39,689 nt of DNA from Bdellovibrio sp. (lineage in GTDB: Bacteria > Bdellovibrionota > Bacteriovoracia > Bacteriovoracales > Bacteriovoracaceae): assembly GCA_022729855.1 (NCBI GenBank), contig DZBG01000012.1:1-39689 (forward strand). The letters are read 5' to 3'. This document shows positions 6,747-10,007 of this stretch, one piece after another. A program made the translations under genes and the position numbers. A model generated the notes under the pieces. It was not told the origin of the DNA and did not search any database. It saw only the letters and a program-made list of their open reading frames with translations. Every line of letters begins with the position of its first letter. Within the stretch, counting starts at the first letter, position 1.

Positions 6747-7246
6747 TATTTCGCAGTAATTACGAAATTCGCGCGACGGTTTTTAGACCATGCTGACTCA
6801 TCATGACCTTCGGCCATCGGTTTTTCTTTCCCGTAAGAGATGATTGAGATGCGTTTAGAGGCAACACCATTTGCTACTAGATAATCACGTACAGCTTTTG
6901 CACGACGCTCACCTAAAGCAAGGTTATATTGACGTCCACCGCGCTCATCAGCGTGACCTTCAACTTGAACATCAACTGCTGCATTAGCAGTTAAAAATTC
7001 AGCGTTAGCCGCTAGAGCAGACTTAGTTGATTCTCCAAGAGTTGAAGAGTCAAAAGCGAAGTAAACTGTTTGTAGTCCACCAGCTGTGTTTGAGTCTGAA
7101 TCACCGTTTAGCTCAAGAGCTAGACCGTTGTTTGTTCCATCTGCACCGTTGGCAAGAGCATCAGCATCGTTTTTAGGTTTGTTAGAAGCACATCCTACGG
7201 CAAGGATAGCGACAAAAAGAGTAGAAAAGAAAGCACGTGCGAACAT
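6746..7246 (-). CDS. pal: Peptidoglycan-associated lipoprotein Pal
   Basis: OmpA-family outer-membrane lipoprotein that anchors the outer membrane to peptidoglycan as part of Tol-Pal. The 166 residues comprise a signal peptide with lipobox LAVGC (Cys19), a Gly/Asn/Asp-rich linker and an OmpA-C domain. That domain has a YFAFDSSTL entry strand, the VEGHADERGGRQYNLALGERR peptidoglycan-binding core (split here as EGHADERG and NLALGERRA) and SYGKEKP. The start has a strong Shine-Dalgarno, AAGGAGAAG, at 7250-7258. It is the first gene of the minus-strand run; tolQRAB are not in the window. Its ribosome-binding region is the proposed target of the small RNA at 7548-7640. Confidence 0.96.
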   Translation of the reverse strand: MFARAFFSTLFVAILAVGCASNKPKNDADALANGADGTNNGLALELNGDSDSNTAGGLQTVYFAFDSSTLGESTKSALAANAEFLTANAAVDVQVEGHADERGGRQYNLALGERRAKAVRDYLVANGVASKRISIISYGKEKPMAEGHDESAWSKNRRANFVITAK

Positions 7247-7401: not shown

Positions 7402-7448
7402 GAGTCAAGGCCATGACTCATGTTTAAGAAAAAAGTCAAACTCATGAC
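7402..7448 (+). promoter_or_regulatory. Two matching upstream activator-like sites
   Basis: Two imperfect copies of AGTCAA-N3-CATGAC lie at 7403-7417 and 7434-7448, identical at all 12 defined positions. Each contains the dyad GTCA-N6-TGAC; in the first copy the dyad extends to GAGTCA-N6-TGACTC. The dyad centres are 31 bp apart, about three helical turns, and lie roughly 106 and 137 bp upstream of the start predicted for the sigma-54 promoter at 7522. This is the spacing expected for binding sites of a sigma-54 activator. They could instead act on pal, which diverges. Confidence 0.55.
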
Positions 7449-7520: not shown

Positions 7521-7537
7521 TTGGCACAGCACTTGCT
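7521..7537 (+). promoter_or_regulatory. Sigma-54 (RpoN) promoter
   Basis: TTGGCACAGCACTTGCT matches the sigma-54 consensus YTGGCACG-N4-TTGCW at all but one defined position. The invariant GG is at 7523-7524 and GC at 7535-7536, with exactly 10 bp between them. Transcription would start near 7548. No protein-coding gene lies downstream on this strand before the terminator at 7602-7639, so the product should be a short RNA. Confidence 0.75.
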
Positions 7538-7547
7538 AATAAAAAGG

Positions 7548-7640
7548 AGTGTGTGTTGGAGTTAAAGAAAGGATTTTTTTAACTTCTCCTTTTGTCTCTC
7601 GAAAAAAAAAGCCTGTGGTTCTCACAGGCTTTTTTTTTAT
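7548..7640 (+). ncRNA. Candidate sigma-54-dependent small RNA
   Basis: A predicted transcript of about 93 nt runs from the sigma-54 start to the end of the U tract. It contains a 7-bp stem (AGTTAAA at 7560-7566 with TTTAACT at 7578-7584), a C/U-rich segment AACTTCTCCTT at 7581-7591, an A-rich stretch and an intrinsic terminator. The C/U segment is the exact complement of the pal Shine-Dalgarno region (7248-7258). An alternative fold pairs AAAGGA (7568-7573) with TCCTTT (7587-7592), which would hide that segment. The only small frame, TTG at 7556 with eight codons, would have most of its Shine-Dalgarno upstream of the predicted start. Existence of the RNA is inferred, not shown. Confidence 0.5.
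7602..7639. terminator. Bidirectional intrinsic terminator
   Basis: A perfect 9-bp stem (AAGCCTGTG with CACAGGCTT) around a 5-nt loop is flanked by A runs on the left and T runs on the right, so it works on both strands. It would end the small RNA on the plus strand and the arginase-family gene on the minus strand. The whole gene-free stretch 7247-7640 therefore holds the pal promoter region, two activator-like sites, the sigma-54 promoter, the small RNA and this terminator. Confidence 0.85.
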
Positions 7641-8585
7641 CTAATTTCCAGATTTATTGAGCATTTCAAAAATGATTGAGGCCATGGACTTTATTGATTT
7701 ACCAGAAATAGAGTCATACATCGGGTTCATTTCATAAATTCCAACGATTGGTCTTAGGTTTCTCGTCTTCGTCATCGCCTGATAAAAATTCCAGAGATTT
7801 GAGAATTCCTCACGTGTCACTCCGTGGGGATTGACGGCGCTGACAGCTTCAATAAGATTTGATTCCAGAGCGTCGGCATCAAGACTAAAAACAAAAGCGC
7901 ACTCTTCAGTAATTTCTAATGATATTTTTTCAAGAAAACCATCAACATTCACACGATTTTTTGTTTCATGATAAAAAAGTCGATATTGAGTGCCATGTGA
8001 GAGGGGGGAGAGTGTTGAAGCTCCATTGGCAAACTCATGAAGCCCATACTGAAAAAGATGAAACTCACCTTTAAATGATTCAGCAAATTGTCTAAAGGGC
8101 GTCCCAGAATGCGGATCAAGATCCGCACGTGTATCGGCGTGAGCATCTATATTAAGAACAATAATCTTCTTAAATTTTTGTCCTAAAGAAACGAGAAGAG
8201 GGTAGATATGATCATGTCCTCCACCTAAATGAAAAACTTGTTGTGAATGAGACTTTGAGAGAACTTCACTTATTTTATGGGATTCAGTTTTCTGAGCTTC
8301 TTGGAAATCTTGTTTTTCATTATCTTGGCTTGAAACTTCTACTTGTGCCCAATTAAGTTCATTTAACTTAGGTGTGAGGGTCCATTTTTTAAATGTATTG
8401 AGTATGGCCTTCGGAGCGAATCTCGCTCCATTACGCCCACCATTTCTCATCACTCCTATATCAGAGGAAGAAGTGAGAAAAACCACAGATTGTCCCTGGT
8501 CTGGTAATTGAGAGAAATTTCTTTCTTTTGGGGCCAAAGACTCGTCAAAACGTTTTTGCCATTGAGTGTTGGTGTGCTTCATCAT
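7641..8585 (-). CDS. Arginase/agmatinase/formimidoylglutamase family hydrolase
   Basis: Ureohydrolase-fold enzyme of 314 residues hydrolysing a guanidino or formimino compound at a binuclear Mn centre. All six metal ligands are present: His124 in GGGHD, Asp147/His149/Asp151 in NIDAHAD, and Asp236/Asp238 in SLDAD. The SGTPFRQ segment after NIDAHAD suggests formimidoylglutamase (HutG-like) more than arginase, but no other hut, speA or arginine gene is nearby to decide. The usual Pro after the last Asp pair is replaced (SLDADALES). The gene stands alone, ends in the bidirectional terminator, and diverges from the GYF-domain gene with only 42 bp between starts. Confidence 0.8.
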   Translation of the reverse strand: MMKHTNTQWQKRFDESLAPKERNFSQLPDQGQSVVFLTSSSDIGVMRNGGRNGARFAPKAILNTFKKWTLTPKLNELNWAQVEVSSQDNEKQDFQEAQKTESHKISEVLSKSHSQQVFHLGGGHDHIYPLLVSLGQKFKKIIVLNIDAHADTRADLDPHSGTPFRQFAESFKGEFHLFQYGLHEFANGASTLSPLSHGTQYRLFYHETKNRVNVDGFLEKISLEITEECAFVFSLDADALESNLIEAVSAVNPHGVTREEFSNLWNFYQAMTKTRNLRPIVGIYEMNPMYDSISGKSIKSMASIIFEMLNKSGN

Positions 8586-8627
8586 AATATAGTTCCATTA
8601 GAAACAAAAAAAGTTAATAGGTTCACG

Positions 8628-10007
8628 TTGTCAAATTTTAGTCAGACTGACAAGCAAGCGCAACAATGGTTTCTTCTTTTGCCTGATGGGCATGAAGGGC
8701 CATATTCAATCATTCAGCTCGAGCAACGAGTGAGTGAAGGCTTGTCTCTTGAATGCTCAGTGTGGAAGCAAGGTGAAGAGGAAACTCACCAATTAAAAGA
8801 TCTTTTACTGCCTGATATGCCAGTAGATGACGGTCCGCCGGCCTTGCCACCCATTCCCGATGTCGAACTTAATGATCTTCCCCCTGATTTACCGCTGGAA
8901 GATTTGACTTATGAACCCGTAGTTGAAGTGAGTATTAAGTCATCTTCGCAAAATATGATTCGCCTTGTTGTTGGGGTGAGCTTTATTCTTTGCCTTCTCT
9001 TTGGCGCAAAATATCTCTTAGATAAACCAGGACAAGTTTCTTGGTCTCGTCCTCAAAAGATGACATTAGATAGTTATCAAGTGTTAAGTGATAAATTGGT
9101 TTTGAATGATTGGGATCAGCCGTTATTTTTTAACGAAGCCACCTCTCCGGATTACTCTCGCTTCTGGCTTGTGACTCCTCAGTTTTATAATTGTGATATT
9201 GCAGGGGACTTTACTGCGGTTGAAGGTGATATTCTCACTATAGATGATATCAAAACCATAAAATTTAACTCCAAGTCAAAATTAATTGATCATGTGGCCG
9301 AATTTAATAAAATCGAATTCGAAGAAGGGGTAAAACTGCTTCCTGGATTTTATAAAATGAATCTCAAACTCACAAATTGTGAAGCCTCAACACTTAAAAG
9401 CAAACTTGCGGGATTATTCCATACTATTCCTTCTGAGATCGATCTTTCATACAGAATTGCGATCAGTGCTCAAAAAGCAGAATATCTCTCGATTGCTCTC
9501 AAAAAATTAGCGGAAGAAAAAATAAAAATTGAGGAACGCAAACGCCTGAACTCTGATCAGTTTTGGCAAGATGTTCAGCAAAAATATCAAACACTCCTGG
9601 CCGTTTGTTTACAGATTGAGCAAGGATTTTTGGATATCTTAAACACTAAGAAGGACTGGCGCACAAGCTTGCGAACCGGCATTGATAAATACACCAAAAG
9701 TTTTGGGGCGCTCTTAACTAATTTTGTTATTAGCAATGAGGCGGACTTTAAAAAGCTTCGTGATGATAAAGTGAATAATCTTTCTATTAAGACTGGTTAT
9801 GAAAGTAAAATTAAATCTCTGACTACTAATATGGGTCAAAAGAGTATGACGTTCATTGAAAACTGGCAAAAGCTCTCAGTGAAATCAGCTAATAGTCAGA
9901 GAGAAAAACTTAAAAAAGAAGTCAGGACAACTTTCTCTGCTATTAAAAAAGATATTGAGAAGAAAATTATTGATGTGACTGAAGAGCAGGCCAAGCTTGC
10001 AGAATAG
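8628..10007 (+). CDS. GYF-domain membrane protein with C-terminal coiled coil
   Basis: Protein of 459 residues from a TTG start. The frame continues back to an ATG at 8508, but that would run through the divergent arginase-family gene, and the recognisable domain begins just after the TTG. Residues about 14-60 (WFLLLPDGHEGPYSIIQLEQ) match bacterial GYF-2 domains. Residues 63-95 are Pro-rich and acidic, and about 110-131 form one membrane helix. The long remainder is Lys/Glu-rich and coiled coil in its last third. GYF domains bind Pro-rich peptides, so the adjacent Pro-rich stretch may be an internal or partner ligand. Function unknown. Its 3' end overlaps the convergent MBL gene by 41 nt. Confidence 0.7.
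   Translation: MSNFSQTDKQAQQWFLLLPDGHEGPYSIIQLEQRVSEGLSLECSVWKQGEEETHQLKDLLLPDMPVDDGPPALPPIPDVELNDLPPDLPLEDLTYEPVVEVSIKSSSQNMIRLVVGVSFILCLLFGAKYLLDKPGQVSWSRPQKMTLDSYQVLSDKLVLNDWDQPLFFNEATSPDYSRFWLVTPQFYNCDIAGDFTAVEGDILTIDDIKTIKFNSKSKLIDHVAEFNKIEFEEGVKLLPGFYKMNLKLTNCEASTLKSKLAGLFHTIPSEIDLSYRIAISAQKAEYLSIALKKLAEEKIKIEERKRLNSDQFWQDVQQKYQTLLAVCLQIEQGFLDILNTKKDWRTSLRTGIDKYTKSFGALLTNFVISNEADFKKLRDDKVNNLSIKTGYESKIKSLTTNMGQKSMTFIENWQKLSVKSANSQREKLKKEVRTTFSAIKKDIEKKIIDVTEEQAKLAE

Follow-up and report, generated by a model that had tools for sequence, protein, structure and literature searches.

A candidate small RNA gene between a sigma-54-type promoter and a terminator

The region upstream of pal in Bdellovibrio sp. 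raised the question of whether a promoter-like string followed closely by a terminator marks the gene of a regulatory small RNA (sRNA) and, if so, what that RNA might control. The DNA studied (the window) was the forward strand of contig DZBG01000012.1, positions 1 to 39,689 (39,689 nucleotides), from assembly GCA_022729855.1, with the GTDB lineage Bacteria; Bdellovibrionota; Bacteriovoracia; Bacteriovoracales; Bacteriovoracaceae. A first-pass annotation of this DNA had proposed an RpoN-type element with one mismatch. Here, we observed that the element, TTGGCACAGCACTTGCT (7521–7537, + strand), agreed with TGGCACRNNNNTTGCW at all defined positions, with GG at 7523–7524 and GC at 7535–7536 separated by exactly N10, so that no mismatch had to be allowed. 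It was the sole exact consensus match in the window and in the 2.80-Mb genome. As the reversed version of the pattern, used as a control, had one match there too, the promoter string alone was not beyond chance genome-wide (~1 expected per genome).

The terminator proposed downstream was recovered at 7602–7638 (+ strand) as a GC-rich stem (AGCCTGTG/CACAGGCT) with flanking A-T pairs, 17 pairs as counted, and a T9 tract. Sigma-54 spacing placed the predicted start at A7548, 12 nt after the -12 C, which would give a transcript of ~91 nt (7548–7638, + strand), in keeping with the ~93 nt suggested earlier. The absence of an open reading frame between promoter and terminator was borne out: a small ORF inside the sRNA was rejected since no frame was conserved, the longest in the window RNA having 9 codons and those of homologues differing (3 to 28 codons). 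The RNA does contain GUG and UUG codons, and AUG as well in many homologues; on this basis a gene for a small protein was considered, as was a leader or attenuator acting on a gene downstream. The lack of a conserved frame speaks against the former, and the latter is at odds with the position of the sRNA, which stands alone, the next gene being convergent here and in most homologues; we regard either as very improbable.

It could also be argued that there is no RNA gene at all, only a chance promoter-like string before the terminator of the convergent arginase-family gene. Such a string is expected about once per genome, as in the control, and the terminator, being symmetric, can also serve that gene, whose end is 3 bp away in the window. 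However, the whole unit was kept in most family genomes, even where that gene was not adjacent, and the majority of the invariant positions fell between promoter and terminator. Conservation thus already refutes this reading in practice, and we give it next to no weight. Taken as a unit, the conserved promoter, RNA and terminator, together with the dyads upstream, support a stand-alone, sigma-54-driven and activator-gated sRNA of ~91–93 nt, as had been proposed. That an RNA gene exists we consider close to certain, although its transcription is inferred without expression data.

Conservation of the locus and its predicted activator sites

A blastn comparison with 39 relatives gave matches in 21 genomes, none of them from another family, and the RNA could be aligned in 19 of the matched loci. 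Family membership was assigned through named records that matched the same contigs, for example L035, which is identical to G009. The order of parts was constant, namely TTGGCAC-N5-TTGC, a GU repeat, a hairpin with AGGAUUUUU, GUCUCUC and the terminator. When a three-part DNA pattern was searched over 84,980 species, 40 stretches were found, 39 of which carried Bacteriovoracales-type RNAs (a few of these records had only broader titles, and L043 was divergent). In the remaining stretch, from Aneurinibacillus, the rest of the RNA was missing.

The first-pass annotation had suggested a covariance search of related genomes. Of 129 genomes of the family, 97 were matched by a model built on the RNA without its promoter; among the 73 good genomes the count was 62, and the matches covered 33 of 48 genera. 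In a sample of 192 genomes across the phylum, all 42 matches fell within the family and none in the other families sampled. The sRNA was normally present in one copy per genome, and one genome with 9% contamination had two copies. At 30 of 30 inspected loci found by this RNA-only model, GG-N10-GC was present 25–28 nt before the GU repeat; when counted from the -12 C, this puts the repeat no more than a few bases from where the transcript is predicted to begin. Most of these loci also had GTCA-N6-TGAC dyads, roughly 80 and 110 bp farther upstream. TGGCA and TGC of the promoter were invariant in 51 homologues. Conservation of the whole unit therefore places the sRNA beyond chance, even though the promoter string alone is not. 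The RNA is thus a widespread regulatory RNA of an entire bacterial family, and we found no published account of it in the open literature searched.

Upstream of the promoter we observed two putative activator dyads to which no strand was assigned, GTCAAGGCCATGAC (7404–7417), an exact tandem match to GTCA-N6-TGAC, and GTCAAACTCATGAC (7435–7448), 31 bp from the first. Among 51 homologous upstream regions, 31 had exact dyads of this type, with 46 copies in all, compared to 0.09 in shuffles; they usually came in twos, ~31–33 bp apart, and mostly lay 65–120 bp before the promoter. The exact tandem dyad was specific to this locus, occurring in only 3 of 25 genomes and always upstream of the sRNA. 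A dedicated, as yet unidentified enhancer-binding protein acting at the dyads is implied by these patterns. RpoN was found in 25 of 26 genomes tested, each with 11–28 sigma-54 activator matches. Loss of RpoN as the cause of sRNA absence was rejected, since of the genomes tested that lack the sRNA only one had no RpoN. The activator sites, the conservation, and the likely seed and candidate targets described below go beyond the first-pass annotation.

Predicted RNA parts and candidate targets

Folding of positions 7548–7639 gave -31 kcal/mol (z = -5.6), with a hairpin followed by the terminator. The predicted 5' tail, AGUGUGUGUU (7548–7557, + strand), was unpaired in folds, and hairpin 1 (7558–7586, + strand) had arms at 7558–7570 and 7574–7586 with a GGA loop at 7571–7573. 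An unpaired linker (7587–7601, + strand) carried the conserved GUCUCUC at 7594–7600. Nearly all of 50 homologue folds showed the same succession of unpaired tail, hairpin with loop GGA, unpaired linker and terminator. GUGUGU of the tail and AGGA at the hairpin were invariant in these 50 homologues. Three parts of the RNA are near-invariant, namely the 5'-terminal (GU)n tail, the GGA-displaying hairpin and the GUCUCUC linker. In the upper helix of the hairpin 97.7% of cells were paired, with a compensatory change at its base, and the lower helix was less well aligned. Covariation measures were mixed; the structure is therefore backed mainly by agreement among single folds.

The tail is a likely seed for ACACACA. 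In leaders of genome G002, 77% of which was covered by the survey, ACACACA was the top arrangement of A4C3, present in 15 genes compared to a mean of 4.3, and it occurred once in the coding control window. The genes concerned included thyA, nrdB, tdk, a MazG-like gene and a DksA-like gene; the first three encode thymidylate synthase, ribonucleotide reductase and thymidine kinase, respectively. We then located nrdB, thyA and tdk in 16 other genomes and searched for ACACACA-N0-30-RGGAG-N4-9-start, so that the test outside G002 rests on pattern positions. In the 12 sRNA-bearing genomes, 15 of 68 CA-repeat sites coincided in frame with the start of one of the three genes, relative to 0.07 expected under random placement. 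The 15 sites were split as 7 at nrdB, 3 at thyA and 5 at tdk (including the window's genome). The four genomes lacking the sRNA had 1–2 pattern sites each, none of them at nrdB, thyA or tdk. Among copies of nrdB, thyA and tdk in sRNA-bearing genomes, only ~40% had the strict pattern. Predicted duplexes between each tail and the leaders of its own genome were about -9 to -18 kcal/mol. Over all G002 leaders, duplex energies showed no excess relative to a reversed seed, and energy ranking alone was therefore not used to choose targets. From the CA repeats at orthologous leaders we infer that pairing of the GU tail with the nrdB, thyA and tdk leaders is probable.

These repeats need not be sRNA sites; they could be enhancers alone, because ACA motifs enhance translation by themselves (PMC3879156). 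Combined with the AGGA invariant at the hairpin loop, and with almost every family genome tested encoding CsrA, this allows for an sRNA that is real and sigma-54-driven but has a protein as its main partner, the GGA-loop hairpin sequestering CsrA or another RNA-binding protein and the CA repeats being unrelated enhancers. CsrA sites typically have their GGA in the loop of a hairpin. Nevertheless, known CsrA-sequestering RNAs carry several sites, and the several conserved GGA loops required for an RNA of the CsrB/RsmZ kind were not met, since only one loop GGA was constant here and the GGAG of the stem was not. This explanation also leaves unaccounted for both the near-invariant GU tail and the link of the CA repeats to sRNA-bearing genomes, and we consider it unlikely.

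The GU tail, for its part, leaves unexplained why the linker and hairpin loop are nearly identical among homologues. The RNA might also act by base pairing with other targets, its main seed being the linker GUCUCUC (or a hairpin arm) directed at ribosome-binding sites, with the GU tail as a stability or Hfq element. GUCUCUC was near-invariant and unpaired, and by hand count GGAGAC lay at the Shine-Dalgarno sequence (SD) in 13 of 74 CA-repeat leaders, cf. 25 of 421 in the G002 background. On the other hand, GGAGAC was found in none of the 9 G002 CA leaders with such SDs, GAGAGAC and GAGACAT were not outstanding among permutations, and where linker and GU sites occurred in that order one RNA would need to form a crossed complex. 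We find this explanation more doubtful still than a protein partner.

We thus favour, on balance, a trans-acting base-pairing sRNA, specific to the Bacteriovorax/Halobacteriovorax family, with the GU tail directed at ACACACA leaders and acting as a dNTP brake. Under this proposal, sigma-54 RNA polymerase would bind 7521–7537, and an unidentified NtrC-type activator on the two GTCA-N6-TGAC dyads (7404–7448) would start transcription at ~7548. The unpaired (GU)n tail would then pair with ACACACA just upstream of the ribosome-binding sites of nrdB, thyA, tdk and other mRNAs, thereby blocking translation or silencing a CA-type enhancer. As for the hairpin and linker, they may keep the RNA stable, bring in a protein or serve as a second site of contact. 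The outcome would be that dNTP synthesis is braked while the signal of the activator is on, plausibly in non-replicating cells.

The direction of regulation is inferred by analogy. In GcvB, an unstructured GU-rich region binds CA-rich repeats located at ribosome-binding sites and thereby silences translation enhancers of the ACA type (PMC3879156), which makes repression the likely sign of similar pairing here. Repression of dNTP synthesis by this sRNA is, in our estimation, evenly poised between true and false. As to its physiological role, also inferred, the Bacteriovorax family includes predators of other bacteria. Attack-phase cells of Bdellovibrio are non-replicative (PMC3627812), so a dNTP brake would fit a predator; neither predation in all family members nor the phase of expression is established. 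The broadest claim is that a family-wide sigma-54 sRNA restrains deoxyribonucleotide supply at the post-transcriptional level (nrdB, thyA, tdk and others) and, through its GU-repeat tail and CA repeats, ties a signal to the phase in which predators do not replicate. This claim is tentative and falls somewhat short of an even chance. If the target assignment is true, sigma-54 signalling would be linked to the control of DNA-precursor synthesis, providing a handle on the switch between non-replicating and replicating states in these bacteria and a testable sRNA regulon resting on a dinucleotide repeat.

Comparison with known small RNAs

The sRNA had been described as belonging to no named family, and an Rfam search indeed gave no family above the gathering threshold, including Qrr, GcvB and GlmY. 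McaS (RF00115) reached 35.5 bits in the window relative to a cut-off of 42, mostly through the terminator and AAAAGGA. Kinship with McaS was rejected as chance, since the match began inside the promoter and was absent from eight homologous loci.

In layout, the locus resembles the Vibrio Qrr RNAs (LuxO, sigma-54), in which a sigma-54 promoter with upstream activator sites drives a stand-alone RNA of ~100 nt that ends in a terminator. It shares the promoter, activator sites and terminator of that layout but differs from Qrr in its single copy, its activator dyad and the lack of any sequence relation at the Rfam threshold. GlmY (QseF/GlrR) is likewise a sigma-54 sRNA with activator half-sites GTC...GAC. 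The QseF site is TGTC-N10-GACA (PMC8745638), whereas the dyad here is GTC-N8-GAC (N6 between GTCA and TGAC), so that the test for a GlmY/QseF site was not met.

The predicted mode of action is closest to that of R1 of the enterobacterial sRNA GcvB, an unstructured GU-rich pairing region whose CA-rich targets lie within or beside ribosome-binding sites (PMC3879156). Two features of this mode were met, namely a conserved unstructured GU-rich region and CA-rich nrdB, thyA and tdk leaders conserved between genomes. In contrast to GcvB, this sRNA has a plain 5' GU dinucleotide repeat, a sigma-54 promoter and different hairpins, and its candidate targets concern DNA precursors rather than amino-acid transporters. 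Promoter, activator sites and candidate regulon can all be read from the DNA itself.

Small RNAs are also described for Bdellovibrio bacteriovorus, a predator of the same phylum. Of these, merRNA contains a c-di-GMP riboswitch, and FliA promoters are present at some other attack-phase sRNAs (PMC3627812). In the phylum sample, the RNA studied here had no match beyond its own family.

Genomic setting and other sites in G002

An arginase-family gene was present in 39 of 52 loci, usually adjacent and convergent. The other flank held either pal and its operon, as in the window, or a short unknown ORF and another gene cluster. The location upstream of pal given in the first-pass annotation was accordingly right as to position, pal adjoining the sRNA here, but carries no general significance, as many homologues lie beside other genes. 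A stretch of 11 nt in hairpin 1 (7581–7591, + strand) was complementary to the pal SD, AAGGAGAAGTT (pal leader near 7235–7246, - strand). This complementarity was kept in only a few of 20 homologues, and pal was rejected as a general target; the arginase-family gene was also rejected, its longest complementarity equalling that of shuffles. A 499-aa protein without a Pfam match was encoded at 8508–10007 of the window (+ strand), and its relatives were found in 32 loci, usually beside the arginase-family gene. Sub-threshold Rfam matches to the CpoB_ybgF thermometer were seen near pal operon genes (L006:682-837, - strand; L005:790-901, - strand).

Two other sites were observed in G002:C1. At L245, a second sigma-54-type site, TTGGCACACGCCTTGCT (start about record position 2117704, - strand), is followed by a ~170-nt stretch without a called gene, which has a 12-bp long-range stem and a T-rich tract at its end and is possibly a further sigma-54 RNA. 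At L155 (record position 309562, + strand), TTGGCATCAGCTTTGCT has no called gene downstream; after it come repeated ATCAAGGAAGA and AGGAAGAT segments that resemble CsrA-type sites.
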